Of a DNA stretch of 64,000 nt, positions 1,618 through 52,468 are shown piece after piece (within the stretch, counting starts at the first letter, position 1; each line of letters begins with the position of its first letter). This stretch comes from Calditrichia bacterium (lineage in GTDB: Bacteria > Calditrichota > Calditrichia > RBG-13-44-9 > J075). The stretch spans positions 62,001-126,000 of the forward strand of contig JANQQU010000030.1 of the NCBI GenBank assembly GCA_028284905.1, given 5' to 3'. A program made the position numbers and the translations under genes. The notes beneath the pieces were generated by a model, which made no database searches, was not told the DNA's origin, and saw nothing but the letters and a program-made list of their open reading frames with translations.

Positions 1618-1789
1618 AATATCTGCGAATAACCATTGATCTGTTGATTATCTGGATATTTTATCTAAATAATTATGCTGTAATAAAAGATTTTCGATTT
1701 TCAGGGAAGTAGTAAATAACCATTGAATGTTCGTTCCCGGATGCTTTATATAATTAACATTCGGAACGGTTGAGGACAGGAGCAAATTT

Positions 1790-4700
1790 TTGGATATTCT
1801 AATTTCCGTAATTGTCGGGATTTTTGTCGGCTATTACCTGCATCGTAAAGCAACTGCCAACGAAGCGAACAGCCAACCACTGATTTCAACACCTGCAGCA
1901 CCCGCGCCTGCCGAGGGAGAGCAACCGAAAACCGGCGACGACAACCTTTATAAGCTGGCTGAAAAAGTAGACGAATTTTACGAGCGTTCTTCCGCATATC
2001 CGGATGATCTGCTTGAACTGGACGACTTTAAAAAAGGTGTGGAGCTGCTCCGGGATAAACAAAAATATGCCATCGATGATCTCTTTGGCTATGCCACCGG
2101 CGTCAACGTCATGCTGGCCTGTATGGCTCTGGAAGCGCTTTCCGAGCGGGATGATATGGAAGATGATCCCGAGCAGTTATTTAAGCTGCTCTCCCACTCC
2201 CTTTACTGGCCGCGCTATTTCGTCCTCAAGCTGCTGCACAAACGTTTAAAAGCCCCGATGCTTAGCCAGGTGCTTTCCCGGCTGGACGATACCTGGACGG
2301 ATAACGTGCCATTGCGGGTATTGAAGGAGTTTATCAAGAACCGTCTGGAAGCCGGCGACCCGCTAACCTTTGGTGATGAGCTTAAAGATGCAACGGAAAA
2401 TCAGCTGGAAGAACTGGAAAGCCTCGTCAAAGAACTGGGCAAGGAATACCAGGACCCGTTGAAAGATGAAATCGAGCAGCTGCAAGGCACCCGCATCGAC
2501 AAGGAATTTTTGAAAAGCTTCGGGGAATTCTGGTTTGATGAAGGCGATGATGGTGATGAATGGATTTCCCATGAAGATCTGCGTGATAAGGTCGACCAAC
2601 TGGAACAATCCCTGCAGGAAGAAAAATCCCCCTCGGTTATTCTGGTGGGCGAACAAGGCGTGGGAAAAACTGCGATTGCCCGCTGCCTTGGACTGCGCCT
2701 GAAGGAAAAGGGCTGGCACATTTTTGAAGCCGGTTCGACCAATCTACTCGCCGGACAAATGTATATCGGTCAATTGGAAGAGCGGGTGCAGAACCTGGTT
2801 CAGAAAATTGGCGGCAAACGCAAAGTGCTTTGGGTAATTCCTAATTTTCACGAGCTTATGTGGGCCGGCACGCACAAATACAGCCCGATGTCCCTGCTCG
2901 ACATGCTTTTCCCTTACATCGAAAAAGGGGACTTGCTAATCCTGGGCGAAACCCACCCCACCGCTTATGAGCGACTGGTACAAAATTCTCCACGGCTGCG
3001 TTCTGTTCTACAAACCATAACCGTGCAACCATTACCACAGGAAAAAACGATCGCACTGGCGCAGGAATGGGTGAATCGCAAAACAGAAGAAAACACCAAG
3101 GAAGCAGTCATCACAGCCGAGACACTCGCAGAAGCTTTTCAGCTTACACAGCAATATATGGGTGATAAAGCGGCTCCGGGTAATCTGCTCCAGTTTATTA
3201 ATCTCACCTGGAAACGCATGTCCAGCGGAGAAGATGACGCGCCGCGGGAAATCAATCTGGACGACCTGCTCGTTACGCTCTCTCAGTTGACCGGTCTGCC
3301 GATCAATATACTTGATGATCGCCAGGGTCTCGATCTCACATCGCTGGAGTCCTTTTTCCACCAACGGGTGCTGGGGCAACCGGAGGCAATTCATTGCCTG
3401 GTCGAAAGAGTTGCGATGATCAAGGCCGGGCTTACTGATCCCACGCGTCCCCAGGGTGTTTTTCTCTTTGCCGGCCCAACCGGTACCGGTAAAACAGAAA
3501 TCGCGAAAACTCTCGCGGAATTTCTCTTTGGCTCCGAACAGCGCATGATTCGTTTGGATATGAGTGAATTTCAAACCCCAATGTCGATTGATCGCATTAT
3601 TGGAGAGGGAGAGAATAATCCGAAAAGCACTGCATTGGTCAACCTGATCCGCAAGCAACCCTTCTCGGTGGTATTGCTGGACGAGTTTGAAAAATCCGAC
3701 CCGAATGTCTGGGACCTCTTTCTGCAGGTTTTTGATGATGGCCGCTTGACCGATCGCCGCGGCAACACTGCAGATTTCCGTCATTGCATTATTATCATGA
3801 CGTCGAATCTTGGCGGTGCGATTCCGACCGGCACGAGCATTGGGTTTACCGGCGCACAGAACATTTTTACCTCTACCCATGTGGATAAGGCGATTACCAA
3901 AACCTTTCGGAAAGAATTTATTAACCGGATCGACCGCATCATCATATTCCAGCCGCTAAATCGCACGGTAATGCGCGAGATTCTTCGGAACGAGCTGCAG
4001 GCAGTAATGCAGCGCCGGGGACTGAGAAATCGCACCTGGGCGGTGGAATGGCATGATTCCGCTATCGAGTTCCTGCTGGACAAAGGCTTCACCCCGGATC
4101 TTGGCGCACGTCCTTTAAAACGGGCAATCGAACGCTTTTTACTGTCGCCGCTGTCTATGACAATTGTCAATCATCAATTTCCGGAAGGCGACCAGTTTCT
4201 TTTTGTGCGCAGTAAAGCCAAGCAGATCGAAGTAGAGTTTATCGATCCTGATACGCCGGACGATGGCGGCCTTTCCGAGGCAATCCCGGAAGGAGAAGAA
4301 GAACCACGTTTGGAGAGTATTTTACTCGATCCGGCCGGCACCATTCAGGAGGCTGCATTCCTGAAGAAGAAGTATGAGGAAATAGAAGCGATACTCGCCA
4401 ACGAAGAATGGGAAAACAGGAAAGCGGATGCACTCTCGCAAACGGCTCGTCCCGGATTTTGGGAATCTCCGGAGCGCTTTGCGACGCTTGGTCTCGCGGA
4501 GTATATGGATCGTATCGAGTCCGGATTCAACACCGCCCAACGCTTGCTGGAGCGACTGATTGGCAATAATCCCAGCGATCGCAAACAATTTTCCGTACCG
4601 CTGGTTCAACGGCTTTCCCAACAGTTGTATTTGATTGATTCGGCAATTCTCTGCGTGCAGGCAGATCACATTCGCGACGCGTTCGTTCTCGTAGAGGCCG

Positions 4701-5179
4701 GTAGCGATACCCAGGTAAAACAAGATCAGCATAATGATTTTGCCCGGCAGGTCGCCGGCATGTACCGTAACTGGGTGGAAAAACGGCGGATGCGTTTCAA
4801 GATACTGTCGGAAAGCAATGGCAACGACGAAATACCATACCGGCTAATGATGGCAGTTGCCGGCTACGCCAGTCTTGGTATTCTGGAAAATGAACAAGGC
4901 CTTCATGTGCTCGAAATACCCGCCGGCGGCAAATCATTCCGTCGTTGCAAGACGCATGTCCGTGTCGTTCCGCAGCCGATCGAACCAGCCGGATACGAAT
5001 CCGGTGCTCTTTTAAAGCAGGCGACAGAAGCATTTGCGAAGGAAAAGATTGAAGACGATCGCTTGACGATCATCCGGCGTTATCGGGAGGCCCCCTCTCC
5101 GTTGGTGCGGGACAGCCGAAAGTGGCGAACCGGCCGCCTGGATCGGGTGCTTGGCGGAGACTTTGACCTCTTCTCTTAG
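1790..5179 (+). CDS. Membrane-anchored ClpB-like AAA+ ATPase fused to a degenerate release-factor-2-like module
   Basis: 1129 residues from TTG 1790 (ACAGGAG seven bases upstream). Layout: one hydrophobic N-terminal segment (1-18), a helical ClpB-N/middle-like region (50-250), AAA+ domain 1 with Walker A GEQGVGKT at 287-294, then AAA+ domain 2 with GPTGTGKT at 562-569, Walker B LLDE near 629-632, sensor TSN at 671-673 and GAR at 772-774. Domain 1 has a degenerate Walker B (VIPNFHEL where VIDELH-type is expected), so it probably binds but does not hydrolyse ATP. Residues 855-1061 align well, by eye, with the N-terminal and PCRF parts of release factor 2 (e.g. DAFVLVEAGSDTQVKQD and GYASLGILENEQGLHVLEIP). 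Residues 1094-1129 match the RF2 C-terminal end. The GGQ domain between them is missing and the SPF stop-codon motif is not kept. Likely a ribosome- or aggregate-directed unfoldase; function unproven. Confidence 0.85.
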   Translation: MDILISVIVGIFVGYYLHRKATANEANSQPLISTPAAPAPAEGEQPKTGDDNLYKLAEKVDEFYERSSAYPDDLLELDDFKKGVELLRDKQKYAIDDLFGYATGVNVMLACMALEALSERDDMEDDPEQLFKLLSHSLYWPRYFVLKLLHKRLKAPMLSQVLSRLDDTWTDNVPLRVLKEFIKNRLEAGDPLTFGDELKDATENQLEELESLVKELGKEYQDPLKDEIEQLQGTRIDKEFLKSFGEFWFDEGDDGDEWISHEDLRDKVDQLEQSLQEEKSPSVILVGEQGVGKTAIARCLGLRLKEKGWHIFEAGSTNLLAGQMYIGQLEERVQNLVQKIGGKRKVLWVIPNFHELMWAGTHKYSPMSLLDMLFPYIEKGDLLILGETHPTAYERLVQNSPRLRSVLQTITVQPLPQEKTIALAQEWVNRKTEENTKEAVITAETLAEAFQLTQQYMGDKAAPGNLLQFINLTWKRMSSGEDDAPREINLDDLLVTLSQLTGLPINILDDRQGLDLTSLESFFHQRVLGQPEAIHCLVERVAMIKAGLTDPTRPQGVFLFAGPTGTGKTEIAKTLAEFLFGSEQRMIRLDMSEFQTPMSIDRIIGEGENNPKSTALVNLIRKQPFSVVLLDEFEKSDPNVWDLFLQVFDDGRLTDRRGNTADFRHCIIIMTSNLGGAIPTGTSIGFTGAQNIFTSTHVDKAITKTFRKEFINRIDRIIIFQPLNRTVMREILRNELQAVMQRRGLRNRTWAVEWHDSAIEFLLDKGFTPDLGARPLKRAIERFLLSPLSMTIVNHQFPEGDQFLFVRSKAKQIEVEFIDPDTPDDGGLSEAIPEGEEEPRLESILLDPAGTIQEAAFLKKKYEEIEAILANEEWENRKADALSQTARPGFWESPERFATLGLAEYMDRIESGFNTAQRLLERLIGNNPSDRKQFSVPLVQRLSQQLYLIDSAILCVQADHIRDAFVLVEAGSDTQVKQDQHNDFARQVAGMYRNWVEKRRMRFKILSESNGNDEIPYRLMMAVAGYASLGILENEQGLHVLEIPAGGKSFRRCKTHVRVVPQPIEPAGYESGALLKQATEAFAKEKIEDDRLTIIRRYREAPSPLVRDSRKWRTGRLDRVLGGDFDLFS

Positions 5180-32207: not shown

Positions 32208-33275
32208 TTACTCAGGCAGTTTAGAAGGGGGTTTCCCTGGGAAGATGCCTTCTTTATTTAATAAAGCTGCTAATCTTTTCGTAGCCACGATTGCTCCCTC
32301 CCGTTTTAAATGAGCAAGGTCAAACATATTTTCGACCGCAAAGAGCGCCGGATATTTATTCGGCAGATTCAAATCCACTAAAGGAATGTTTGCGAAGTGC
32401 GTTTCCAATAGTGGATCAACGGCACTTTGTTTGCCTTGTACGGGAGGTTTGAGAAAAATGAGTTTGATGCCCCTTGACTCACATTGACGGATCATATCTA
32501 TAATTATCTCTATGGTTGTTAATCGGAATTCAAAACTTTGATTTTTTCGCTTGCCGTCGTTTAATGTTGCCTTCTTGAGCAACGCCCGGTATTCCTGCTG
32601 ACCTTCTTGAGAAATGAAATACTGCCGCCGTTTCCGGTATTCCGTTCCTATCTCGGCTTCCAGGGATTTATATCCTTTGTATCCATGTAATTTCAGGGGC
32701 AAGGCAGCGCCGGGATCTCGAGAAAAAGTACGATAAAATTGCCGTAACTCTCCGGCAGAAGTCATATTCATACTAAAATGGTTCAGGCAGGTTTTAATCA
32801 TTTCCGCTTTTTCCGTAAATGAAAAAGACGATTGAAGAATTGCGGAACAGGCAATGGTTGTTCGTTTTACATCGTGGTATTTCGTTATGCGCCATGCCAG
32901 CCAATTTTCTGCAGCGGGCACCGGTTTAAAATTAGGAACTTCCAAAATCAGGTATTTTAGTTGAGGCAAGTTTCGCTGTAATATTTCTTCCAGCATATAT
33001 TGCGTTTCAAGCATTTGCATGCCAGGAATTCCCATGTTAAAGGAAGTAATCTGTTGATTCTTTCCGCTCATCAACGAATCGAAAAGGGGGGGGAGAAAAC
33101 TGCGATAGGTGAGGCTGGTGCCTAGAAAAATCGTGTTTATCGAATCGGCTTGCCAGTTAAGAGCCCTGATTTTCTTACGAACTATTGGGTCATTAATAAC
33201 CGGTATCTGCTGCAGACCGGCAAAGAAACCGGCTAAAATGATGGATAATAAAATTGTATTTTTAAGGAATTTCAT
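32208..33275 (-). CDS. SGNH-like acyl-transfer partner protein A
   Basis: 355 residues with one N-terminal membrane anchor (3-24) and a periplasmic body. It is one of five paralogues in this cluster. They share an N-terminal QxDSINTxFLG(S/T)S motif (here ADSINTIFLGTSLTY, candidate catalytic Ser), a long helical middle, and C-terminal FDLAHLKREGA with the Asp-x-x-His dyad expected for SGNH/AlgX/DltD-type proteins. It starts 10 bases after the MBOAT A stop, so they are translationally close and likely form one acylation unit. Proteins of this kind finish O-acylation of a surface polymer after an MBOAT channel has passed on the acyl group. Confidence 0.8.
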   Translation of the reverse strand: MKFLKNTILLSIILAGFFAGLQQIPVINDPIVRKKIRALNWQADSINTIFLGTSLTYRSFLPPLFDSLMSGKNQQITSFNMGIPGMQMLETQYMLEEILQRNLPQLKYLILEVPNFKPVPAAENWLAWRITKYHDVKRTTIACSAILQSSFSFTEKAEMIKTCLNHFSMNMTSAGELRQFYRTFSRDPGAALPLKLHGYKGYKSLEAEIGTEYRKRRQYFISQEGQQEYRALLKKATLNDGKRKNQSFEFRLTTIEIIIDMIRQCESRGIKLIFLKPPVQGKQSAVDPLLETHFANIPLVDLNLPNKYPALFAVENMFDLAHLKREGAIVATKRLAALLNKEGIFPGKPPSKLPE

Positions 33276-33284
33276 GATTAATAT

Positions 33285-34760
33285 TTAAAACTGAAAATAA
33301 ATAAACTCAGTCGCCCCAAACTGCCCGCCGACGATGGTCATTAAAAGCACTGAGACGTATACCGTCCAACGAATGATTTTAAGCCGGTTGTTAAGCAAAA
33401 GAATGATTGATTTATCATGCTTTTCTTCTATTAAATGAACCGTCAGGAGTAAAGCAATGCCGGCCAGAATAAGGGAAAAATCAAATTTGGCCATACCAAT
33501 CACTAACTTTGTATCTAAGGTAAAATTGGTTATCATTTGACTTAGTAATACCAGGCAATCACTTAAAGAATTCGCCCGGAAGACTGTTAGGGAAAGTGTA
33601 ACTAAACTAATGGTTACTGCTATACCGATCAAATCCCGGCATTTATCAAAAATGGCGACAGTGATATTGTTTGTCCAGCGACTTCGTAATTTTTCCCAAA
33701 TTTCCTGCCGGTAGGGGGATGTAATTGCACCGCAAATTAGGAAAATCCCTTGCAGCACGCCGAGTATTACAAATGTCCATTTCGCGCCGTGCCAAAGGCC
33801 AATGACAATGAAGGTAAGAAAGAGGCTGCTGAACCAGCGGAATTTAGTAATCCGTTTCCGCCAGGCTAGCGGCTGGAAGAGATAATCCTTGAACCAGGTC
33901 GTCATGGAAATATGCCAGCGATCCCAAAATTCCTGAATCGTTCTGGCAAAAAACGGCCGGCGGAAATTCTCCATCAGTTCATACCCCATTACCCGGGCAG
34001 TACCGATGGCAATATCGGTATAGCCGGAAAAATCGCAGTAGAGTTGAATCAGGAAAAAAAATGAAGCGATTGCAACCGGCAGGCCGGAGTAATCCCCGGG
34101 ATTATTAAACACTTCGTTGACGTATAAGGCAATACGATCAGCGATAAAAAGTTTTTTGAAAAATCCCCAGGTAGCCAATTTGAGACCATCGGTAACCCGT
34201 TGATAATCAAAATGATGTGTTTTTCGAAACTGCGGTAGTAACCGTTGGGATCGTTCAATCGGACCGGCGACCAATTGGGGGAAAAAACTGACATAGAGGG
34301 CAAAAATACCGAGATGCCGCTCCGGTTTCATCTCACCTTTATAGATATCAATAGAGTATGATAAACTCTGAAAGGTATAAAACGATATCCCCACCGGGAG
34401 GAGCAGATCAAATCCCGGGACGTCATACATAATGTTAAACTGCTGAAAAACGACACGAAGGGAATCGTTAAAAAAGTTAAAATATTTGAAGGAAAATAAA
34501 ATACCCAGATTTCCGGTTAAGCTCAGCAATAAATATGGCCAGCGTTTTTCTTTGGCTGGCAGCTTGCCCATTTGCAAACCGGCCCAGTAATCGATCAGGG
34601 TGCTGATGATTATCAGGATGAGGTATTCTGCTTTCCAACAGGCATAGAAATAATAACTGGCTGCCAGCAAAAATCCCCAACGAGCTTTTTGGGGAATGGC
34701 AAAATAGATCGCTACAACGGTTGGGAAAAACAGGACAAAATCGAAGGAATTGAAGAGCAT
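33285..34760 (-). CDS. MBOAT-family O-acyltransferase A (AlgI/DltB-like)
   Basis: 491 residues with about 11 membrane helices. LPVGISFYTFQSLSY (121-135), ERSQRLLPQFR (169-179), DFSGYTDIAIG (243-253), RWHIS with His283 and GLWHGAKW with the catalytic-type His324 are the AlgI/DltB membrane-bound O-acyltransferase signatures. Such proteins accept an acyl group from the cytosol (in DltB, from a carrier protein) and hand it outside. MBOAT B is very similar over its whole length. Its SGNH partner follows by 10 bases. A 166-base gap with a 14-bp tandem repeat separates it from the ACP gene upstream. Confidence 0.92.
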   Translation of the reverse strand: MLFNSFDFVLFFPTVVAIYFAIPQKARWGFLLAASYYFYACWKAEYLILIIISTLIDYWAGLQMGKLPAKEKRWPYLLLSLTGNLGILFSFKYFNFFNDSLRVVFQQFNIMYDVPGFDLLLPVGISFYTFQSLSYSIDIYKGEMKPERHLGIFALYVSFFPQLVAGPIERSQRLLPQFRKTHHFDYQRVTDGLKLATWGFFKKLFIADRIALYVNEVFNNPGDYSGLPVAIASFFFLIQLYCDFSGYTDIAIGTARVMGYELMENFRRPFFARTIQEFWDRWHISMTTWFKDYLFQPLAWRKRITKFRWFSSLFLTFIVIGLWHGAKWTFVILGVLQGIFLICGAITSPYRQEIWEKLRSRWTNNITVAIFDKCRDLIGIAVTISLVTLSLTVFRANSLSDCLVLLSQMITNFTLDTKLVIGMAKFDFSLILAGIALLLTVHLIEEKHDKSIILLLNNRLKIIRWTVYVSVLLMTIVGGQFGATEFIYFQF

Positions 34761-34814
34761 TTAGAAATTCTCTGATTAACTTTATAGAAATTTACCTTTA
34801 CAGCAAATTCAGGA

Positions 34815-34893
34815 AACTGATAACCGATAACTGTTAACCGATAACTGTTAACCGATAACTGTTAACTGATAACTGTTAACTGATAACTGTTAA
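34815..34893. repeat. Tandem 14-base repeat array
   Basis: Five consecutive 14-base units (three of CCGATAACTGTTAA, then two of CTGATAACTGTTAA) start at 34824, preceded by a half unit. Units are directly joined, with no spacers. The array fills the gap between the ACP gene and MBOAT A, so it may separate two transcripts or hold a binding site. Confidence 0.9.
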
Positions 34894-34926
34894 TCAGAAC
34901 CCGAAAGATGCTAACACCTTTTAACC

Positions 34927-35193
34927 CTAGGCTGCTTTTAAACTATTCTCGATATATTCAACCAGGCTGGAAAAACGGTCGAAATCTTTCATGGTTAGGT
35001 TTTGCGGATTGACGACGATCTTAAAATGATTCTCCACCGCAACAAGTAAGTTGAGCATGCGTAAAGAGTCCATTTTTAGATTGTTTTTCAACGAAGTTTC
35101 GTCATTAATGGTAGATGCGTCCAGGTTTACGCCTAATATATCTTTTGATGATAAGATGCCGATAAGTCCTTGTTTAATTTCGCTTCTGGTCAT
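34927..35193 (-). CDS. Stand-alone acyl carrier protein
   Basis: 88 residues, a small acidic helix bundle. KMDSLRMLNLL puts the phosphopantetheine-accepting serine at Ser43 (D42-S43-L44). AAGGA stands seven bases before the ATG. It lies last of four genes, methyltransferase, halogenase and AMP-ligase being upstream, and just before MBOAT A. The likely role is to hold an acyl or aryl acid, loaded by the ligase, for halogenation or methylation and then hand-over to an MBOAT. It is not a fatty acid synthase ACP judging from context and from the absence of fab genes. Confidence 0.88.
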   Translation of the reverse strand: MTRSEIKQGLIGILSSKDILGVNLDASTINDETSLKNNLKMDSLRMLNLLVAVENHFKIVVNPQNLTMKDFDRFSSLVEYIENSLKAA

Positions 35194-35263
35194 GGTAACA
35201 TCCTTCTTGATTATTATAAATTTCTGGTAAAGAATGATTTTTACTTTTTAGGTAGATTTGTTG

Positions 35264-36298
35264 TTACGCTTTATAGCCGCGAACAATACTGCAGGGGTTG
35301 AATACAGACATTGCATGATATTCGATGTCCACAAATCCGGCATCTGCCAGCCAGCTTTGAGTATCCGAAACGGAATGATTATGACCTGACTCGGAGGTGC
35401 AGAGCATGATCAAATCGAAAAACAACGGCCATTGTGCTTCCTGAGGGGCTTCTGCTAAAAACTGCCCCTGTATTATTATGGAACCACCAGGATTAACAAC
35501 GTCATAGAGCCGCTGAATCATTTTGCGACTGCTTGCTTCTCCCAGCATCTGTAGAGTATTGGAAATCAGGACAAGATCATAGCTGCCGGGAATGTCATCT
35601 TCTAGCGCATCTAACCCAAGAAAATCAACTTTGTTTTCGAGCGAATATTGTTTGTGAAGCTCTTTGGCATAACCAATAATTTGCGGTAGATCCAATAGTG
35701 TTAATCTTAATTCCGGATTACACAGTGCCAGTTCATATGCATAAGTGCCAGGACCGGAACCGACATCCAGGAGAGATTGGTAGGCAGAAATATCGAGAAA
35801 TTCCGCCAATTCCTTGGCCGGCAGTGCCGCATAGACATTCATTGCCGTCCGAAAATCTTTGGTCATCGATTGATCAGTACCATGATGTAAAGTCGGGTCT
35901 ACGGTCGGGGCGGAACTACGAACGGCTTGATCCAGATTTACCAATGCTGTTTGGTAAAAATCCAGGCTAAAAACCCAGTCGCCCATATAGTTATTCTCGT
36001 CTTCAGGAAGCATTACCAGCCTGCACGCCTGCGAAAGCTGGAAATTGCTTTCATTATCGGTGATCAATAAATCCACTCCTACCGCTGCGTTTAGCAGCCT
36101 AAGCAACGTCTTCGCATTGGTTTGAGTGGCTTCAGCTAATTCATTTAATGATTTACTGTCAGTACCAATCAGCTTAAAAATTTGCAATTTGTGCAAAGCG
36201 AAAAGAATACTGGATTGAAAATAAGCAGTCGCTATCGACAGAATTTCTTTCTGACTTTTAAACGTCATTAGGCTGGAAGTTGTATTGGGCTGAGTCAT
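35264..36298 (-). CDS. SAM-dependent O-methyltransferase (dimerisation-domain class)
   Basis: 344 residues, the usual size of the plant-caffeate-OMT-like bacterial family. The N-terminal winged-helix dimerisation domain covers residues 20-100 (KSLNELAEATQTNAKTLLRLL). The Rossmann part starts near 165 with LLDVGSGPGTYAYELA (motif I) and continues with TLLDLPQIIGYAK (motif II). AAAGGGGG lies five bases before the ATG. In this family, a hydroxyl, often phenolic, is methylated. Beside the halogenase and ligase, methylation of the same ACP-bound acyl group is likely. Confidence 0.86.
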   Translation of the reverse strand: MTQPNTTSSLMTFKSQKEILSIATAYFQSSILFALHKLQIFKLIGTDSKSLNELAEATQTNAKTLLRLLNAAVGVDLLITDNESNFQLSQACRLVMLPEDENNYMGDWVFSLDFYQTALVNLDQAVRSSAPTVDPTLHHGTDQSMTKDFRTAMNVYAALPAKELAEFLDISAYQSLLDVGSGPGTYAYELALCNPELRLTLLDLPQIIGYAKELHKQYSLENKVDFLGLDALEDDIPGSYDLVLISNTLQMLGEASSRKMIQRLYDVVNPGGSIIIQGQFLAEAPQEAQWPLFFDLIMLCTSESGHNHSVSDTQSWLADAGFVDIEYHAMSVFNPCSIVRGYKA

Positions 36299-36390
36299 GA
36301 TAACCCCCTTTCTGATATGGCCTTAAAGGCAATTTGTTTGATGGTGAAAATCATAAGAACAGATGTGCGAAGTAAACAAACTAGCGGATG

Positions 36391-37779
36391 CTACTGCTCA
36401 ATAAAGGGGGCAAATACTTCCCGATGCTCAGCATTACAAGTGGTTGATACATTAAAACCGGATTTGTCGATGTAGAATTGCTTGAATTTTGTAAGAAACT
36501 GTGGATCTTCAAGTCGGTCGAGCATTTCGCTATATGCTTCGTGGCGATGGAAGAAATCGCCGGCGATTAAGTAATCGAACAAGGAAAATGCAAATTCCTG
36601 CTGTTTGTAATAGCTCTTGTATGCTGGCCCAAGCTGTGTAAAATTAATCCCTTTGGAGTTGTAAAAGAGGCGGATCAATTTATTGACGAGGACATACACA
36701 CCATTAATTTGTTCATAAACAGCAGTTAAGGTGTTTTCGGTTTCTTTCCCATTTTTTTGCAGCTGATCGGCAACAGCGCCGGCAACCAGACGGCCGCTAT
36801 TCATACCCATGTAAACACCGGTGGCAAAGATCGGATCGAGGAATGTCGCGGCATCGCCAACCAGGGCGAAATTGTTGCCATACTTTTCTTCGGAATAGTA
36901 GGAGTAATTTCCGCTGGCGATCAGCGGCTGGGCAATTTCCGCATCCCCGATAATACTTTTCATAAATGGTGAAGAAAAAAGTTCCTGCCGGTAAAAGTCC
37001 ATTTGCCAATCTTCCGAGCCATTTTCCATAATTTTTTTACGGGTGTCCTTAACGTATTGATTATTCAATACTAAACCGATGCTCAGGCGATCGAGCTCAA
37101 TGGGGATTATCCAGATCCATCCTTTTTTATCGCCGCCCAGATAGACAATTTGTAATAAACCTTCCTCCAGGCCCCGGGTCATTTTCGCTTTTTTCCAGTG
37201 GGTGGAAAAAGCGGTGCGATCGAGGTCCGGGTAGGAACGCTTCCATTTTTGCTGACGGGCAAGAAAAGTACCCTGGCCGCTGGCATCAATGATAAAACGA
37301 GATTGGTAAACCCGTTCTTCACCACTTTTTGTAACTGCCTTGGTGAAAACCTGACCATCTTCCCTTTGAAAATCAACATTTCTGACCGTGATCTCTTCTT
37401 CGACGGTCGCGCCATTTTTACGAGCATTATCCAGTAGCAACTGGTCAAACTCCGCGCGGGTGACGTGGAATGCGAGGTGACTGGCATCTTTAATAACATC
37501 GCCAAAGCACCAGGTTGACTGGGAAACCCCGTTAATATCGACAAACTGGGCGCCGGGCTTGCGGACAAAACGATTCTGGATATCTTCCAGCACGCCGAGC
37601 TCTTCGAACACCCAATAATTGTAGGGTAACAAAGATTCTCCAACGTGCTCCCGCGGGAATTTTTCTTTTTCTAAAATGGTTGCCTGTAATCCCTTGCGGG
37701 CGAGTACTGTTGCTGCGGTAGAACCGGCCGGTCCGCCGCCAATAATGAGAACATCCGTTTGTATTTTGACTTCTGACAT
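36391..37779 (-). CDS. Flavin-dependent halogenase-like FAD monooxygenase
   Basis: 462 residues. The FAD-binding GGGPAGST (14-21) and REHVGESLLP (43-52) open the protein. Candidate catalytic Lys74 sits in VRKPGAQF. WIWIIP at 221-226 is the WxWxIP block that separates halogenases from ordinary flavin monooxygenases. GDAATFLDPIFATGVYMGMNSG near 312-333 is the second FAD motif. Residue order fits variant B flavin-dependent halogenases, which work on carrier-protein-bound or free aromatic acids. A geranylgeranyl-reductase-type enzyme was considered but has no WxWxIP. It needs reduced FAD from a reductase; none is in the cluster. It lies between the AMP-ligase and the methyltransferase, with AAAGGA seven bases upstream. 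Confidence 0.8.
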   Translation of the reverse strand: MSEVKIQTDVLIIGGGPAGSTAATVLARKGLQATILEKEKFPREHVGESLLPYNYWVFEELGVLEDIQNRFVRKPGAQFVDINGVSQSTWCFGDVIKDASHLAFHVTRAEFDQLLLDNARKNGATVEEEITVRNVDFQREDGQVFTKAVTKSGEERVYQSRFIIDASGQGTFLARQQKWKRSYPDLDRTAFSTHWKKAKMTRGLEEGLLQIVYLGGDKKGWIWIIPIELDRLSIGLVLNNQYVKDTRKKIMENGSEDWQMDFYRQELFSSPFMKSIIGDAEIAQPLIASGNYSYYSEEKYGNNFALVGDAATFLDPIFATGVYMGMNSGRLVAGAVADQLQKNGKETENTLTAVYEQINGVYVLVNKLIRLFYNSKGINFTQLGPAYKSYYKQQEFAFSLFDYLIAGDFFHRHEAYSEMLDRLEDPQFLTKFKQFYIDKSGFNVSTTCNAEHREVFAPFIEQ

Positions 37780-37798
37780 AAGTGGATCCTTTCCCTGG

Positions 37799-39286
37799 TT
37801 ATAATTCTTCCAATAAGTATTTTTTCAATATTTTTCCTGTTGCGCTGCGCGGTAACGCTTTCTGAATGATGATGCGCCGTGGTACTTTATAGTCTGCTAA
37901 ATTCTCAAGGCAAAATTCAATAATTGTATCTTCAGTGATTTCTGTTGATGACTCTATAAACGCAGTAACGATTTCTCCGGAGATATCATCCGGCGTGCCA
38001 AGCACGACACACTCTTTGATTGCCGGGTGTGCACGGAGTGTTTGCTCAACTTCTCCGGGATCAACCTTCGAACCGGCGACGTTGATAAAAGTGCTTTTTC
38101 GGCCAGTGAGGTGCAGACTGCCATCTTCGCTAATTCGCCCAATATCCCCAGTAAGAAACCAGTCGTTTTGAAATAGCTGCTGATTTAATTCCGGATTGTT
38201 GAGATAACCACTCGTCGTTGCCCGACTTTTTATTTGGAGGTGCCCGGTTTCACCGTCTGATACTGGCGTGTCGTCTTCATCGACGATGCGAATGTGTTTG
38301 CCGCCAATCGGTTTTCCCACCGAGTCAGCATTACCTGACTGAACATCATCGGTTCGCACTGTAACGGTGCCCGCCTCCGAGGAACCATAAAGAGTATTGA
38401 TCGATTTCCCGAATCGTTCCCGAAACTCGTTATTCAGCGTTTCTGTGACTTTTGCGCCGGAGGAGAAACAAAATCGGAGCGAGGAAAAGTCCGGTGCTTC
38501 TTTTAAGTAAGTTCGGTTTAACAAGCCGTACATAAATGGCACACCGGCAAAAAGGGTCGGCCGCTCCTCCGCGACGTACTGAATAAACTTGTTCGGAAAA
38601 AAAGTATCATTTAAAACCAATGTCGCTCGTTTGTAGATGGCCGGAAGCAGGGCAACATTAAAGGCGTAGGAATGATAAAGCGGGGCCGGACAGACAATCC
38701 GGTCTTCCGCCGTTAAAGCGATTGCCTTGGAAAAATGAACAAGCTCATCGCCGACATTCGCATAACTGCGTGGCACAATGCGGGACTTACCACTGGAACC
38801 GGAGGTGAAGAGTAAGATAAATTCCTGGTCTTCCGGAACTGGGACCGCTGCTGGCGGTATTGCCACTGTGTCGGGAAAGTTTACTGCCCAGAGAGAGATA
38901 TCCGCGGGCAAATCCAATCCGGTTATTTCTTTCGCTTGTGGTAATGCCTGGATAATTTCTTCAGTCGTTTTGTCTGCAAGGAGCAACTTCGTTCCGGTCT
39001 CCGCCAGATAATCCTGTAATTCAAATTGTTTGAAGCCTTTATTCAGTAACACACAACTCGCTTGCAGTTTAATCGCAGCCAGGATACTGTAAACAAATCC
39101 CGGGCGGTTTTCCATAAATATGCCAATCCGCCGGTTGCTCCCCGGAAACCCCACGTCAGATAATATTTCAGTGATATTGTTTAAGTGGTTTTCTAATTCA
39201 TGATATGTGATCGTTTCATTCTGATAAATCAAAGCAGGTCTGGACTGATACTCCGCTTCAAATATATGTAGTTGCTGCCAATTCAT
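37799..39286 (-). CDS. Stand-alone AMP-forming acyl/aryl acid ligase
   Basis: 495 residues, full-length ANL-family enzyme. LLFTSGSSGKSR near 154 (P-loop), YGSSEAGTVT near 300, LTGDIGRISEDGS near 370, and PRSATGKILKKYL at the end carry the A3, A5, A7 and A10-type motifs with the conserved final lysine. It activates a carboxylic acid as an adenylate and moves it to CoA or to a carrier protein. With the adjacent ACP it most likely loads ACP, as DltA loads DltC. The chain or aromatic nature of the acid cannot be read from the binding pocket by eye. It is followed by 19 bases and the halogenase gene, so co-transcribed. Confidence 0.88.
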   Translation of the reverse strand: MNWQQLHIFEAEYQSRPALIYQNETITYHELENHLNNITEILSDVGFPGSNRRIGIFMENRPGFVYSILAAIKLQASCVLLNKGFKQFELQDYLAETGTKLLLADKTTEEIIQALPQAKEITGLDLPADISLWAVNFPDTVAIPPAAVPVPEDQEFILLFTSGSSGKSRIVPRSYANVGDELVHFSKAIALTAEDRIVCPAPLYHSYAFNVALLPAIYKRATLVLNDTFFPNKFIQYVAEERPTLFAGVPFMYGLLNRTYLKEAPDFSSLRFCFSSGAKVTETLNNEFRERFGKSINTLYGSSEAGTVTVRTDDVQSGNADSVGKPIGGKHIRIVDEDDTPVSDGETGHLQIKSRATTSGYLNNPELNQQLFQNDWFLTGDIGRISEDGSLHLTGRKSTFINVAGSKVDPGEVEQTLRAHPAIKECVVLGTPDDISGEIVTAFIESSTEITEDTIIEFCLENLADYKVPRRIIIQKALPRSATGKILKKYLLEEL

Positions 39287-39301
39287 CTAATTTCTCGCCG
39301 G

Positions 39302-40342
39302 TTAAAAGTCGATATTTTCACTGATTAATAATTCCGCTAATGTTTCTGTTGCCAGTGCTGCCCCTTTTGTGTTCAGGTGGTAGATATCAAAACGGTTCTC
39401 TGTTGCAAAAAGCGCCGGATATTTTTCCGGAAGATTTAATTCTATGATCGGATAAGGTATATGCGATGTTTTTAATTTATTGATCGCAAAACTCCATGCA
39501 CCGTTCGCAGGAGGGTTTAAAACGATGATATTAATGTTCTGCTTTTGACAGAGTTGAGATATTTCATAAAAGGTTTTCAGCGTAGCTGTCAAAGTATAGC
39601 GGGAGGTTAAAGATGCTTTATCAGCTTGCTGGGCATTTGCCAAAAGTTCCTGGAAAGCTTTCTGTCCCTCTTTAGACAAATAATGAGTACGTTGTCGGGA
39701 AGTCTGGTTACTTAGACCATCATATCCAAAATAATTTAGATAATGTTTTTTGGGCTGATCTACCCTTCTGTTTCTATTACGCAAAGTGGCTTTCCAGATA
39801 TCATGCAAGTCCCCGGAACGGGCATAGTGAGAAAAGCAAATTTGTATCCGCGTTTTTAACATCTGCAATTTTGTGGTGAGCGATAATGGCGATGTTATAA
39901 TTGAGTTACAGATTGTCGTTGTTCGTTGAAAATTATGATAGTTTATGTAACGAGAAGAGCGGCTGTTTATTTGGCGTAGTAGTAAAGAGATGTCATTAAC
40001 TTCCAGAATTAATGTTCTGAGATTTGCGGGCTTATTCGCTAACACCTGCTGTAGTATATATTGGATTTCCAACAGACTGGCGCCGGGTAAACCTAAGTTA
40101 AAAGAGCTGATATTTGCTTTCATTCTTTGATTGATTAAGCTGTCAAAGTAAACAGGGTCAAAGTTCCGATAGGTAACGCTTGAGCCCATAAATAGCGTAT
40201 TTATACTGTCTGACTGAGCGGATAGCGCCTTTAATTTTTTCTTTACCAGCCAATTCTTTTGGGTTCTGGTATCTTCAAAACTGTTGACAATTAGCAGGCA
40301 AGCCAACAGAAAGAGGAAACTGCTACTTAAAAATTTTATCAT
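39302..40342 (-). CDS. SGNH-like acyl-transfer partner protein B
   Basis: 346 residues with an N-terminal membrane anchor (about 3-20). QSDSINTLFMGSSVTYRNF gives the candidate catalytic Ser, and FDIYHLNTKGA near the C-terminus gives Asp and His. It follows the MBOAT B gene by 11 bases and resembles SGNH A, C, D and E throughout, with the helical middle region least conserved. It is the predicted partner of MBOAT B. Confidence 0.8.
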   Translation of the reverse strand: MIKFLSSSFLFLLACLLIVNSFEDTRTQKNWLVKKKLKALSAQSDSINTLFMGSSVTYRNFDPVYFDSLINQRMKANISSFNLGLPGASLLEIQYILQQVLANKPANLRTLILEVNDISLLLRQINSRSSRYINYHNFQRTTTICNSIITSPLSLTTKLQMLKTRIQICFSHYARSGDLHDIWKATLRNRNRRVDQPKKHYLNYFGYDGLSNQTSRQRTHYLSKEGQKAFQELLANAQQADKASLTSRYTLTATLKTFYEISQLCQKQNINIIVLNPPANGAWSFAINKLKTSHIPYPIIELNLPEKYPALFATENRFDIYHLNTKGAALATETLAELLISENIDF

Positions 40343-40353
40343 TTTAAAAGATC

Positions 40354-41850
40354 TTAAAATTGAAAATAGATGAATTCTCTGGCACCAAATTCACCACCAA
40401 CTATAGTGACAAACAAAATGGAGATATAGCAAATCCAGCGGACAACGCTAATTCGCTCCGATATTAATTGGGTAACATGATGCCCTTTTTGCTCTTCCAG
40501 CCAGTGGATAAGCAGCAGAAAAATGCTCATGATCAGGGCAAAATAAAAATCGAATACCTGCGAGCCGGCCATTATCGAAGTGTCGAAACTTATGTTTACA
40601 ATACTCGCAAGAATTGCTATTGCATTTTCCAGGGAACTGGCCCCAAAGAAAATACCGCTAACTGCAAAGAGATTGAAGGTGATGAATCGGGCGAGCCCGT
40701 TTTGAAAATTTTGAGATATGTTTTTCAGGGAAAATCCAGCAAAATTTCCCGGTATAGCATTGTTAACAATTTCGTGCCACCGATCCCATAGTTTTCTGCG
40801 AGAAGGTGAAGTAAGATTACCGATAACCAGATAGATGCCATGTAATGCGCCAAAAATAACGAATGTCCAGTTCGCTCCATGCCAGAGGCCGCAAAGTAGA
40901 AAAACCAGGAAAAGGCTAAACAGGCGAAAGTTTTTGGAAACACCCCGGCGTAATGCCAGCGGGGCGAAAAGATAGTCTTTAAACCAGGTCGTCAGGGAAA
41001 TATGCCAACGATTCCACAAGCCACTGATAGTTTTCGCTAAAAAGGGGCGGCGGAAATTTTCCATCAGGTCGTAGCCCATTACCCTTGCCGCACCAATGGC
41101 AATATCCGAATAACCGGCAAAATCGCAATACACCTGAATCAGAAATAAATAAGCCGCGATTAATATTGGCCAGCCGCTATAGGCGTCTGGGTTGCTGTAT
41201 ACTTCCGAGATATAAAGCGCCAGGCGATCGGCAATGACCAATTTCTGAAAAAAGCCCCAGGTCATCAGTTTAAAACCATCGACAACACGCTGATAATCAA
41301 AATCATTCTTTTGACGAAACTGCGGAAGCAAGCGTTGGGATCGTTCTATCGGTCCGGCGACCAGTTGGGGGAAAAAGCTGACATAAAGGGCAAAAATCCC
41401 CAGATGTCGTTCTGCCGCAACTTTTCCACGATATACATCGATGGAATAAGCCAGTGTCTGGAAAGTGTAAAAGGAAATGCCTACCGGTAAAAGCACATCA
41501 AATGCCGGGACGTCGTAGAATATATTAAATTGTTGAAAAACTGCCCGGGCAGAATCGTTAAAGAAATTGAAATACTTAAAAGAAAAGAGGATGCCCAGGT
41601 TGCTGCAAAGGCTAAGGATTAAAAATGGGCGACGCTGTGCTTTGGTTGCCAGGTTGCCCATTTTCAGGCCAGCCCAATAATCGACAAGCGTGCTGGCCAT
41701 GATCAGTAATAAATATTCTTCTTTCCAGCAAGCATAAAAATAGTAACTGGCAGCGAGCAAAAACCCCCAGCGAAATCGGTAGGGTAAGGCAAAATATATC
41801 GCTACAACGACCGGGAAGAATAGTAAAAAGTCGAAAGAGTTAAAAAGCAT
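40354..41850 (-). CDS. MBOAT-family O-acyltransferase B (AlgI/DltB-like)
   Basis: 498 residues, closely related to MBOAT A over its full length, including the start MLFNSFDF, RWHIS with His283 and GLWHGANW with His324 at the same positions. It differs from A in the C-terminal quarter (about 340-420). It is followed by the SGNH B gene and preceded by SGNH C, 5 bases upstream. Two intact MBOATs in one cluster suggest two acylations (two acyl donors or two acceptor sites). Confidence 0.92.
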   Translation of the reverse strand: MLFNSFDFLLFFPVVVAIYFALPYRFRWGFLLAASYYFYACWKEEYLLLIMASTLVDYWAGLKMGNLATKAQRRPFLILSLCSNLGILFSFKYFNFFNDSARAVFQQFNIFYDVPAFDVLLPVGISFYTFQTLAYSIDVYRGKVAAERHLGIFALYVSFFPQLVAGPIERSQRLLPQFRQKNDFDYQRVVDGFKLMTWGFFQKLVIADRLALYISEVYSNPDAYSGWPILIAAYLFLIQVYCDFAGYSDIAIGAARVMGYDLMENFRRPFLAKTISGLWNRWHISLTTWFKDYLFAPLALRRGVSKNFRLFSLFLVFLLCGLWHGANWTFVIFGALHGIYLVIGNLTSPSRRKLWDRWHEIVNNAIPGNFAGFSLKNISQNFQNGLARFITFNLFAVSGIFFGASSLENAIAILASIVNISFDTSIMAGSQVFDFYFALIMSIFLLLIHWLEEQKGHHVTQLISERISVVRWICYISILFVTIVGGEFGAREFIYFQF

Positions 41851-41855
41851 ATGAA

Positions 41856-42893
41856 TTAGAGATTATTTCGTTTTTCTGTAAACGTATTTGCTAGTATTGC
41901 TGTTACCAGCTTTGCTCCCTGGTGATTGAGATGATTAAGGTCAAAACGGTTTTCTCTGGCAAAAAGCGCCTGATACTTCTCGGGTAAATCCAAATTAAGC
42001 ATAACACAATCAACCTGCTGGGATATCAAATTCTCAACAAGGAATTTTCGTTCTCCAAATGAAGGCATACTCACCAGAATAATTTTTATTTTCCGAGCTT
42101 CGCATTGTTTGAGAATATCTTTGACTATGCTAAGTGCTGTCGCTTGTGTTTGACGATAATGCTTAAACATCTTATTTCTTTTACGATGATTGCCATTCAG
42201 CTTTTGTTGATATTCTTGCTTTCCTTCCTCACTTAAAAAGTGCTGGCGTCTCTTTTGTAAATGTGGATGGCGAACTGTTTTTTGAGTATAGCCATTATAG
42301 TTCCTTAAAGAATCTCCAGGTATGCTTATATCATTAAAAAGAGAATTAACTAAATATCTCATTTCACCTGCCTTAAAAGAATGTTTGGCAAAAAATGTCA
42401 TTCGCGATTTGATCATTTTGTATTGCTGAACTGGCCTGTAGGAACTATTCAGAATTGCTTTGCAGGCGATTAAAGTTCGCTTAAAGTCATGATGGCTAAT
42501 AATTCGGGGCGTTCGATGATTTGCACTGTTTAAGAATAGGGTTAAATCATTAATCTCGAGAATGATTGTTTCCAGATTAGGGATATCCTGGTGTAAGATC
42601 TGCTCGACCCAGTATTGAGCTTCCAGCAGATCCATACCGGGTAAGCTAAAGTTAAATGAATTGGTCTGAAGGCCCAAATTCCTGTTTAAGCTATCAAATA
42701 ATGCCGGGTCAACTGCACTTAAGGTCAAACTGGTGCCAAAAAAAACAGTATTGATTTTTTCCGCTTGAAGATTTATCGCATCCCAGTGCTTTTTGAGGGC
42801 ACGGTCCTGGGTTTTTCTGGTATCATCCAGATTAAAGATGATCAATAAAAAAAGTGTGGTTATAGCAAGTGCCTTTGCTAAAAATTTTATCAT
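41856..42893 (-). CDS. SGNH-like acyl-transfer partner protein C
   Basis: 345 residues with membrane anchor (about 5-20). The N-terminal QAEKINTVFFGTSLTL and the C-terminal FDLNHLNHQGA supply the candidate Ser and Asp-His. It is separated by only 5 bases from MBOAT B downstream. Upstream it is preceded by the decayed MBOAT remnant (42906-43008), as an intact MBOAT precedes SGNH A and B. The base composition here is visibly more AT-rich than in the left half of the window, which could mean later acquisition. Confidence 0.8.
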   Translation of the reverse strand: MIKFLAKALAITTLFLLIIFNLDDTRKTQDRALKKHWDAINLQAEKINTVFFGTSLTLSAVDPALFDSLNRNLGLQTNSFNFSLPGMDLLEAQYWVEQILHQDIPNLETIILEINDLTLFLNSANHRTPRIISHHDFKRTLIACKAILNSSYRPVQQYKMIKSRMTFFAKHSFKAGEMRYLVNSLFNDISIPGDSLRNYNGYTQKTVRHPHLQKRRQHFLSEEGKQEYQQKLNGNHRKRNKMFKHYRQTQATALSIVKDILKQCEARKIKIILVSMPSFGERKFLVENLISQQVDCVMLNLDLPEKYQALFARENRFDLNHLNHQGAKLVTAILANTFTEKRNNL

Positions 42894-42905
42894 TTTATAT
42901 CGACC

Positions 42906-43008
42906 TTAACATTTAAAAATAGTTAAATTCTCAGGCACCAATACGCCCATACTATTGAGACTAACAAAATAAAGATGTAGAAAATCCAGTAAAACGAAGC
43001 TGTTTAAA
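42906..43008 (-). pseudogene. Remnant of a third MBOAT gene (3' end only)
   Basis: About 100 bases resemble, at DNA level, the very 3' end of MBOAT B, including spacing to the next SGNH gene. On the minus strand it reads W-I-F-Y-I-F-I-L-L-V-S-I-V, matching W-I-C-Y-I-S-I-L-F-V-T-I-V of MBOAT B's last helix. A two-base deletion and premature stops break the frame, and everything upstream of the last helix is gone, replaced by the end of SGNH D. It marks a deleted MBOAT that once paired with SGNH C. Confidence 0.78.
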
Positions 43009-43025
43009 CGGTTGTGGGTATTGTT

Positions 43026-44060
43026 TTAATCTTTAAGATGATGAACGGATAACTTTGCTAAAATTTTTGTCGCATGTATGGCCCCGGCATCATTTAGATG
43101 ATTATGGTCAAACCGGTTCTCCGGCGCAAATAGTTCAGGGTATTCTGCTGGCAGGTTCATTTCAATTAGCGGGCAATCTATCTGGTTTACTTCAAGGTTT
43201 TTTATGATGAACTTTTTTTCTCCGTTCGCTGGTAAATTTATTAAAACAAGATTTACACCTCGACTTTTGCAATGGCTAATAATATTACTGAGAATTTGAA
43301 AGGCAGCTAATTGTGTCTGACGGTAATGATTCTGGTTCTTAATCATTAGTTTATGGGTACCGTTTAATCTCGCCTGGTAATCTTCTTGCCCTTCATGAGT
43401 TCTAAAAAAGTGATTCCAATTCTGAAAACCGTTGTTTCTACCTCTTCCTTCCGCATAGCCGGTATAGCTCTTCAATGTATCCGGATAACTTTTCTGCTGG
43501 AAAAAGAATGATTGCCAAATGTGTTTAAGTTCACCCGTCCGAAGAATATGTTTGGCAAATAAATTCAGGCGATCTCTGCTGAATCTAAGCTTTTGGCCAA
43601 TGGGATATGAAGTTTCCCAAATAGCCAGACACACTGTAAACGTTCGTTTAAGATCATGATAATTAATTATTCGGGAAGCGTTATGATTAGCAGAATTCAG
43701 GAATACCCAATAGTCATTAACTTCCAGGTAAATAGTATTCAGGTTTGTAAATTGCATTGTTAAAAGATTTTCCAGGACGTACTGTGTTTCAAGTAAATTC
43801 AATCCGGGTAAACCTAAGTTAAAAGATTTGGTCTGCTGATTATAATTAGCCATTAAACTATCGTAAAGATGAGGATCAATGCCACCATTAGTCATGCTAC
43901 TGCCAAGAAAGAGTGTATTTATCTCCGATAATTGCATTTCCAATGCAGTCATTTTTTTCTTGAAAGATCCGTCGGGAATTTTTCGCGTATCTTCCACATT
44001 ATTCATAATGAATAAAAAAATAAGACTAATAATTATGATGTTGCCGAATAGCTTTGCCAT
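43026..44060 (-). CDS. SGNH-like acyl-transfer partner protein D
   Basis: 344 residues with membrane anchor (about 7-22). LSEINTLFLGSSMTNGG holds the candidate Ser; FDHNHLNDAGA near the C-terminus holds Asp and His. It is unpaired: an MBOAT remnant, not an intact MBOAT, lies after it, and the UbiA gene lies 49 bases before it. It may serve one of the two intact MBOATs or act in another acylation step. Confidence 0.8.
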   Translation of the reverse strand: MAKLFGNIIIISLIFLFIMNNVEDTRKIPDGSFKKKMTALEMQLSEINTLFLGSSMTNGGIDPHLYDSLMANYNQQTKSFNLGLPGLNLLETQYVLENLLTMQFTNLNTIYLEVNDYWVFLNSANHNASRIINYHDLKRTFTVCLAIWETSYPIGQKLRFSRDRLNLFAKHILRTGELKHIWQSFFFQQKSYPDTLKSYTGYAEGRGRNNGFQNWNHFFRTHEGQEDYQARLNGTHKLMIKNQNHYRQTQLAAFQILSNIISHCKSRGVNLVLINLPANGEKKFIIKNLEVNQIDCPLIEMNLPAEYPELFAPENRFDHNHLNDAGAIHATKILAKLSVHHLKD

Positions 44061-44109
44061 CGATAGAATTCAGTATGATTGTTTTTTCAAAATCGGTTAC
44101 AAGGAGAAA

Positions 44110-45126
44110 TCAGCGTAATAGAGATAAAATTCTGGTATATATCGTGAGCCTCATCCATAGCATTCTGCGAAAAATGAGAAGATGCAGTGCCAGCATTGTG
44201 GCATAGAGCGGATTAAGAAGTAGCAGTTGAAATGCTAACAATAATGGCAACCAGGCGACATAAAATTCATTATCTACAAAAGGTAGATAACGTTCACTTT
44301 CCGGGGTTTCCGGAAAGAAATAGGTGAATTGCCATCCTCGCCACCATTTGCTTATTTCCAGTAAAGCAAAGCCACTAACAGCGAATCCTATTGGTGCTGA
44401 ATTGACAGTTAATAAACTAATAAAAGCAGCAAATGTAATCAGCTCTGCAGGGTAAGAAAACCACATTACGATGTTACGAATGTTCTTGCGGGATTTGCTG
44501 CCGGCAAAGGTAATCACATCGATTCTCTGATCGTCCTCGAGATCCAGCAATTGGTGATTAATAATTCCCCGAAAACCAACAAAGAAGGCCCAAATTGTCA
44601 TTGTAATCACGAGTAGCCAGCTATCGATGCCCGCGAGCGGTGCAAGCTGGGTAATTGTATAAGTAATAATAAGGGTCGGTAACATATGTGCTGCAGAGGT
44701 ATCGGCCAATACGCCGAGAATTCCCCGCTCTTTCCAGCGAATGGGGGGCACAGAATATAAAGTTGGCAGCAGGAAATTGGCAGCGTATAAAGATAACATA
44801 AGTGGGGTTGGATTAAGCAGTAAAAACACCGTAAAACCAATGAATAAACAAAACCCTAACAGGAAAAAGCGCATAAAGGGGGAGAGCTTCGCCATGGTGT
44901 TCTTTTTTCCGGCGGCGAGGTCCTGCTCAATATCAAAAATATCATTGATGATATAGCCGTAAGCGCCAACCATGCATATGCTGACAATGAGGATTGGCAA
45001 ACTAAACATCTTCGCTGAAAAAGGCAGATCATTAAGAAAGATGGTTGCATATCCAGCGGCCGCCAGGGGCGGGATTTTCCATTGAAACCATTCCGCGGTG
45101 CGGGCCAGATTATTTATAAATGACAT
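44110..45126 (-). CDS. UbiA-family prenyltransferase
   Basis: 338 residues, about nine membrane helices. NDIFDIEQD (about 61-69) is the first Asp-rich motif, and NHQLLDLEDDQRID (about 190-203) replaces the second with extra acidic residues. YSVPPIRWKERG near 124 fits the usual post-motif loop. Such enzymes attach a prenyl chain to an aromatic ring or sugar, and a few are terpene cyclases. In this cluster the aromatic or sugar acceptor is unknown. Its presence beside DxDD-barrel/P450 genes is the main hint for a terpenoid or meroterpenoid product. Its weak ribosome binding site follows the sulfotransferase by 52 bases. Confidence 0.88.
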   Translation of the reverse strand: MSFINNLARTAEWFQWKIPPLAAAGYATIFLNDLPFSAKMFSLPILIVSICMVGAYGYIINDIFDIEQDLAAGKKNTMAKLSPFMRFFLLGFCLFIGFTVFLLLNPTPLMLSLYAANFLLPTLYSVPPIRWKERGILGVLADTSAAHMLPTLIITYTITQLAPLAGIDSWLLVITMTIWAFFVGFRGIINHQLLDLEDDQRIDVITFAGSKSRKNIRNIVMWFSYPAELITFAAFISLLTVNSAPIGFAVSGFALLEISKWWRGWQFTYFFPETPESERYLPFVDNEFYVAWLPLLLAFQLLLLNPLYATMLALHLLIFRRMLWMRLTIYTRILSLLR

Positions 45127-45178
45127 ATTGTAAGAATTTCTTTCGATTTACGGCACAATTATTGAGCATTGTTGCTTT

Positions 45179-45967: not shown

Positions 45968-45982
45968 TATTAATTGCCTGTT

Positions 45983-48322: not shown

Positions 48323-48346
48323 GCGCTGTAAAAGATTAAATATTGG

Positions 48347-50028: not shown

Positions 50029-50042
50029 AAATGCCCGTATCC

Positions 50043-51227: not shown

Positions 51228-51236
51228 GCCTTTCCC

Positions 51237-52340: not shown

Positions 52341-52468
52341 TCAGGAACCTTGGATATTTCTCTTAACGGCGAGCGGTAATTGCAGGAAGTGGTCTCTTTG
52401 CGTTTAAGGAATGGGAAATACTCATAAAATCTCATTTCGGAAAATTATTTAGCCTTAATTCTGCGTAA

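Follow-up and report, generated by a model that had tools for sequence, protein, structure and literature searches.

A ClpC-like AAA+ ATPase fused to a release factor 2-like module without its GGQ domain

Results

A Clp-type ATPase with a release factor 2-like C terminus

The Clp-RF protein is a Clp/Hsp100 ATPase with a surprising partner domain, a C-terminal module best described, from sequence and predicted fold, as a release factor 2 (RF2) of which domain 1 and the domain 2/4 body remain, the GGQ domain having been excised and the codon-reading loops lost. Its gene lies in a 64,000-nt stretch of DNA (the window) from a Calditrichia bacterium (assembly GCA_028284905.1, contig JANQQU010000030.1), and about 36 members share its build and come from Calditrichota, Acidobacteriota, Planctomycetota and a single Rokubacteria bin. 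By its sequence features the protein is neither a ClpB, nor a standard ClpA or ClpC, nor a release factor. We tentatively favor, somewhat short of an even chance, a role as a membrane-tethered, ClpP-linked unfoldase that a decoy RF2 guides to ribosomes.

The layout of the gene is given in Table 1. A hydrophobic N terminus is present in nearly all complete members of the family. The region that follows it (aa 46–240) matched no Pfam family, and the Clp_N double domain was not found there. Pfam matched AAA_2 at residues 553–716 (8e-45) and ClpB_D2-small at 723–802 (3e-15). The full-length AlphaFold model of the 1129-aa protein has a pTM of 0.35 and was therefore used for secondary structure and single-domain matches only. 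No non-coding RNA was found within or upstream of the gene.

Table 1 Features of the Clp-RF gene (nucleotide positions in the window)
Feature	Position	Strand	Basis
Whole ORF, 1129 aa + stop; TTG start	1790..5179	+	ORF call
Shine-Dalgarno-like AGGAG, 7 nt upstream of TTG	1778..1782	+	Sequence
Predicted N-terminal membrane anchor, aa 1-22	1790..1855	+	Hydropathy; AlphaFold helix 2-26
All-helical N-terminal domain, aa 49-240, in place of Clp_N	1934..2509	+	AlphaFold, Pfam-negative
AAA+ D1, aa 262-478, ClpC-like, catalytic residues gone	2573..3223	+	Alignment
D1 Walker A GEQGVGKT	2648..2671	+	Alignment; kept here
D1 pore loop GQMYIGQLE, aromatic Y325	2753..2779	+	Family counts
Degenerate D1 Walker B VLWVIPN	2825..2845	+	Family counts
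AAA+ D2 and D2-small, aa 490-818, ATPase motifs intact	3257..4243	+	Pfam, alignment
D2 Walker A GPTGTGKT	3473..3496	+	Alignment
D2 pore-loop position, GYVGYEEGG of ClpB/ClpC replaced	3593..3628	+	Alignment, family counts
D2 Walker B VVLLDE	3668..3685	+	Family counts
PhiGF tripeptide I684-G685-F686 at the ClpC ClpP-docking loop position	3839..3847	+	Alignment, family counts
RF2-like domain 1, aa 855-960, RF2-type FW motif	4352..4669	+	Profiles, fold
RF2-like domain 2, aa 961-1066, without GGTE loop and SPF	4670..4987	+	Profiles, joint alignment
Shortened loop at the RF2 SPF position, IPAGGK region	4916..4933	+	Alignment
RF2-like C-terminal tail, domain 4 part, aa 1088-1129: IRRYREAPSPLVRD...WRTGRLDRVLGGDFDLF	5051..5176	+	Alignment, tail search

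The C-terminal module resembles RF2 in profile, fold and tail

The module was recognized by several profiles. Pfam PCRF matched residues 979–1041 at 24.8 bits in the full protein, just above its cut-off of 24 bits, and at 29.2 bits when the C-terminal part was searched alone, and the NCBIfam model TIGR00020 (prfB) matched residues 858–1041 (E=1e-9). A profile built from five orthologues and compared with the PDB found RF2 chains at E=1.6e-13 and RF1 at 6e-8. An AlphaFold2 model of the module computed from 12 sequences (pLDDT 86, pTM 0.83) had free Escherichia coli RF2 (1GQE) as its best Foldseek match in the PDB (E 2.1e-11), and the matches listed were exclusively RF2 and RF1 structures. The tail alone (residues 1088–1129) placed RF2 proteins at the top among several thousand ORFs, at weak E values of 0.03–0.1. 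In profile–profile comparison with RF2 proteins, drawn from the window genome and other family-bearing genomes, the module aligned from domain 1 into the PCRF region, and through to the C terminus only when the alignment was forced to be global.

The joint alignment with RF2 places the gap at the GGQ domain. The RF2-type FW motif of domain 1 occurs in 32/32 modules and in all eight RF2 sequences, compared with none of five RF1 sequences. Neither GGQ nor SPF was found in any of the 32 alignable modules, and a loose pattern, GG[TDE]E, matched one of them; the decoding-centre elements GGTE, SPF and HTS of RF2 are lost. Tested for the features of release factor 2, the module thus has domain 1, the PCRF fold and the RF2 C-terminal tail and lacks the GGQ domain. 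The first-pass annotation, made from the sequence of this one protein, had proposed RF2-like order and spacing in residues 855–1061 and 1094–1129 with loss of GGQ and SPF; both proposals held, and the comparison with RF2 structures that it had called for is the significant profile match above.

Placed in one tree with the RF1 and RF2 of the same genome set, the RF-like modules group as a single clade with 100/100 support, on a long stem and apart from both factors. They carry invariant residues of their own that are absent from RF2, such as LGLAEYMDR and WRTGR, and their tail is enriched in arginine, with 7.1 K+R compared with 4.8 in RF2; the extra arginines would fit an acidic or RNA partner. 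Taken together, the profile, fold, tail and FW-motif matches argue that the module derives from RF2 or from the RF2 stem.

ATP hydrolysis and substrate grip appear divided between the two AAA+ domains

The motor was compared by alignment with the genome's own ClpB and ClpC and with a third Clp paralogue encoded there, and motifs were counted over the family. D1 keeps its Walker A motif in most members, with the threonine lost in several Planctomycete members, and its pore-loop aromatic (Y, F or W at the position of Y325) in 33 of 34. Position 351 of the D1 Walker B is proline or arginine in all 34 and the catalytic glutamate in none, and the Arg-finger region is not conserved. D2 retains Walker A, the NRxD Arg finger and the GARPL sensor 2, and both Walker B acidic residues, D631 and E632, are present in 35/35; the GYVG pore loop of D2 is lost in all members, with unrelated variable residues in its place. 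This pattern suggests that hydrolysis falls to D2 and the grip on substrate to the pore aromatic of D1.

The class of the motor was assigned from several comparisons. D1 scores highest against ClpC, and for D2 the best single-chain PDB matches are ClpB. The curated models score far below their cut-offs (TIGR03346 ClpB, 348.8 bits against 1232; TIGR02639 ClpA, 331.2 against 993). No ClpB middle coiled-coil domain is present between D1 and D2 in the alignment; D1 runs straight into the D2 linker. Foldseek matches of the whole model, which is of low overall confidence, are mostly ClpC and ClpC–ClpP complexes, with a ClpB entry at the top. We class the AAA+ core as ClpC-like and not as a true ClpB. 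The earlier label 'ClpB-like' was thus right about an Hsp100 pair of AAA+ domains, which is borne out by the Pfam matches and by alignment with the genome's own ClpB and ClpC, and loose about ClpB identity, given the affinity of D1, the missing middle domain and the low scores. Its membrane anchor agrees with the hydropathy prediction, and its broken D1 Walker B extends to every member.

A Gly-Phe pair stands at the docking-loop position in 36/36 members, and every neighboring loop position is variable. The family readings (SIGF, RVGF, LGF and FGF) align with SMGF of the ClpC encoded in the same genome, and PhiGF is absent from its ClpB and from the third, ClpV-like paralogue. In Staphylococcus aureus ClpC, PhiGF docks into ClpP, and mutating it abolishes binding (PMC12521514). 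This invariant, ClpP-docking-like motif favors partnership with a protease, as in ClpC, over a disaggregase role of the ClpB type. The first-pass annotation had noted neither this motif nor the division of functions between D1 and D2. The window genome has two ClpP genes, and the unfoldase probably works with ClpP. The third paralogue itself (L046 on G000 C8, an 879-aa ORF) has a diverged Arg-finger region and may be the ATPase of a type VI or contractile system.

The fusion is a conserved family without a fixed gene neighborhood

Six of the 40 genomes in the window's class carry the module. For the phyla of L025 (named Acidobacteria), L027 (named Planctomycetota) and L028 (named Rokubacteria), the figures are 11 of 396, 15 of 392 and 1 of 95 genomes, respectively. 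Wherever the contig permits checking, it is preceded by two AAA+ modules, and complete family ORFs span about 1050–1510 aa. Mean pairwise identity over 28 complete members falls from 61% in D2 through 54% in the RF tail, 39% in the RF domains and 37% in D1 to 25% in the helical domain. Searching 40 Calditrichota genomes for the helical domain and D1 without the RF module returned none; the next matches were plain ClpC and then ClpB. Monophyly, conservation and this constant association argue that the RF module is functional. The first-pass suggestion that similar fusions could exist, to be sought as joins of ClpB AAA+ and PCRF, has thereby yielded the present family.

Several sequences called for separate inspection. 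A member labeled Deltaproteobacteria (L021) lies on the same contig as G006, which is placed in the window's own family, so it was rejected as evidence for a further phylum. Two half-modules (L098, L099) were rejected as true truncations; both stop at contig ends. L016 (998–4285; the orthologue in G012) contains one in-frame TAG in its PCRF part (MY*QWAARRRMR) and is otherwise open and conserved; the TAG could equally reflect recoding, an error or a recent nonsense mutation. L100 and L102 seem to be split or to contain frameshifts, which, like the TAG, is to be expected of metagenome bins. In L013 (G006 C251), a second stretch at 2247–2348, about 0.7 kb downstream of the gene, matches residues 245–277 of the query for the RF tail at 85% identity and might stem from a broken duplication or a misassembly; the stretch was not seen in a one-frame translation of 2000–2420.

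The window genome also encodes ordinary RF2 (L019) and RF1 (L018), ClpB, ClpC, ClpX, HslU and a tmRNA. A nitroreductase gene (858–1526, same strand) lies upstream of the Clp-RF gene; the pair adjoins in three same-family Calditrichota genomes only, with inter-frame gaps of 46–231 nt. An M48 peptidase, HisS, an AbiEii-type gene, PhoX and aconitase are each found near one member or one lineage. No translation or proteolysis gene recurs as a neighbor across lineages, and with no widely kept neighbor of any kind we rejected a conserved gene partner. A mobile-element origin was rejected for want of matches in plasmids, phages or viral contigs, and a defense system because the PADLOC matches are generic AAA+.

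Elsewhere in the window, 35264–54854 (− strand) holds a likely natural-product cluster with an O-methyltransferase, a flavin halogenase-like protein, an AMP-ligase, an MBOAT acyltransferase, a UbiA prenyltransferase, a squalene-hopene-cyclase-like protein and P450s (two checked, a third by sequence similarity). Repeated proteins of about 345 aa with an FLGTSLT/FLGSS motif, some adjoining MBOAT proteins, are encoded at 32208–44060 and 59678–60841 (− strand); by eye from translations, there are at least five copies in the former and two in the latter. The one searched against Pfam had no match.

Discussion

The Clp-RF protein shares features with several known systems. Like ClpC (MecB)–ClpP, it has two AAA+ modules, a D1 nearest ClpC, the PhiGF motif in the same position and the D2 ATPase residues; unlike ClpC, it is without Clp_N, the ClpC middle domain, the D1 Walker B and Arg finger and the D2 pore loop, and it adds the N-terminal anchor, the helical domain and the RF2-like tail. 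It resembles ClpB/Hsp104 in the sequence of D2 and D2-small and differs in lacking the middle domain, Clp_N and pore loop 2, in having PhiGF and in its inactive D1. With RF2 (prfB) it has in common domain 1 with the FW motif, the PCRF/domain 2 fold and the tail pattern LVxD..TG...VLxGDxD, whereas the GGQ domain is excised, SPF, GGTE and HTS are lost, and the module stands behind an AAA+ protein and in its own clade. Like mtRF1, PrfH and other unusual class I release factors, it is an RF relative without normal stop-codon duty; as far as is known, those factors keep the GGQ domain. The closest parallel in concept is Vms1/VLRF1 with Cdc48/p97, in which an RF-derived protein and an AAA+ unfoldase are linked in the quality control of stalled ribosomes (PMC6514570); there, however, the RF fold is unrelated, the ATPase is recruited through a VIM motif rather than fused, and VLRF1 can retain peptidyl-tRNA hydrolase activity.

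In the mechanism that we favor, the anchor would hold a presumed hexameric ring at the inner membrane with its body in the cytosol. The RF2-like modules would dock on ribosomes without ending translation, most plausibly through domain 1 at the uL11 stalk or at the A-site entrance. D2 would hydrolyze ATP, and D1, nucleotide-binding only or inert, would grip the client through its pore aromatic. The client, perhaps A-site-bound proteins or products of stalled membrane-protein synthesis, would be unfolded and handed to ClpP docked at the PhiGF loops. In RF2 itself, domain 1 touches the L11 stalk, and ArfA-dependent release at stalled ribosomes does not require SPF (PMC5378476), so that an RF2 that reads no codon and has no GGQ could still dock. 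The term 'ribosome-binding module' is plausible for a protein part that keeps the fold core and domain 1 and has shed every known codon-reading element; the loss of the GGTE, SPF and HTS contacts makes canonical A-site binding doubtful. Counting against this mechanism are the lack of a recurring translation or proteolysis neighbor, the D2 without the pore loop needed for ordinary threading and the tmRNA, which already covers ribosome rescue, and the module, placed after D2, may sit near the ClpP face and could hinder ClpP docking. That the protein is a ribosome-targeted Clp protease, in which the dead RF2 is an adaptor to stalled or A-site-blocked ribosomes and bound material is destroyed or extracted, we consider unlikely, together with the corollary that this would be a bacterial route of quality control distinct from tmRNA, ArfA/ArfB, RqcH, MutS2/SmrB and HflX.

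A serious contender, itself short of probable, is that the RF2-like fold was exapted for a non-ribosomal use in a membrane-tethered Clp-type unfoldase or protease unrelated to translation, where it might form a rim or collar at the D2 end, an oligomerization or autoinhibition element, or a receptor for a membrane or cytosolic client. A module that has kept mainly the RF fold core, has lost every known residue touching codon or peptidyl-tRNA, has acquired invariant residues of its own on a long stem branch and has no recurring translation-linked neighbors would suit such a use, yet the retention of domain 1 and the RF2 tail motifs in order and spacing despite great divergence, and the arginine enrichment of the tail, are harder to reconcile with it.

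Quite improbable, to our judgment, is a stalled-ribosome splitter or a hibernation or protection factor acting as an A-site decoy without proteolysis, with ATP hydrolysis by D2 driving subunit separation or the ejection of A-site-bound factors. Ribosome splitting had been raised in the first-pass annotation and gained no specific support. An RF2 without GGQ would be a natural A-site plug, and the missing D2 pore loop suggests pulling or remodeling over processive threading; against this, the ClpP-docking motif is conserved, the D1 pore aromatic is retained, the decoding loops are lost, and an anchored complex of hexameric size would have awkward access to the A site. An assembly or gene-calling artefact or a decaying fusion can practically be dismissed, for although the named members all come from metagenome bins, with the TAG and the split or frameshifted frames described above, the same architecture, strongly conserved, recurs in about 36 genomes of several phyla, long contigs of 4.06 Mb (G008) and 1.55 Mb (G486) among them, and these independent assemblies already refute it.

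We know of no Clp/Hsp100 protein with a translation factor among its domains. Among the AAA+ and Clp mentions in a survey of release-factor evolution (PMC6514570), the Vms1–CDC48 link is the only one, and no Clp fusion appears. Our literature search, whose coverage of subscription papers and preprints is thin, found nothing that joins PCRF and ClpB or describes this build, and 'undescribed' is accordingly provisional. Present in scattered members of at least four phyla, the architecture hints that protein degradation may be connected to the ribosome in a way not yet described. If the module still finds ribosomes, the Clp-RF protein would be a hard-wired bacterial unfoldase–ribosome link, analogous in idea to eukaryotic Vms1–Cdc48. 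Even if its role is not ribosomal, the family shows a release factor turned into an accessory domain of a Clp protein, and a Clp of two rings that apparently divide hydrolysis and grip between them.
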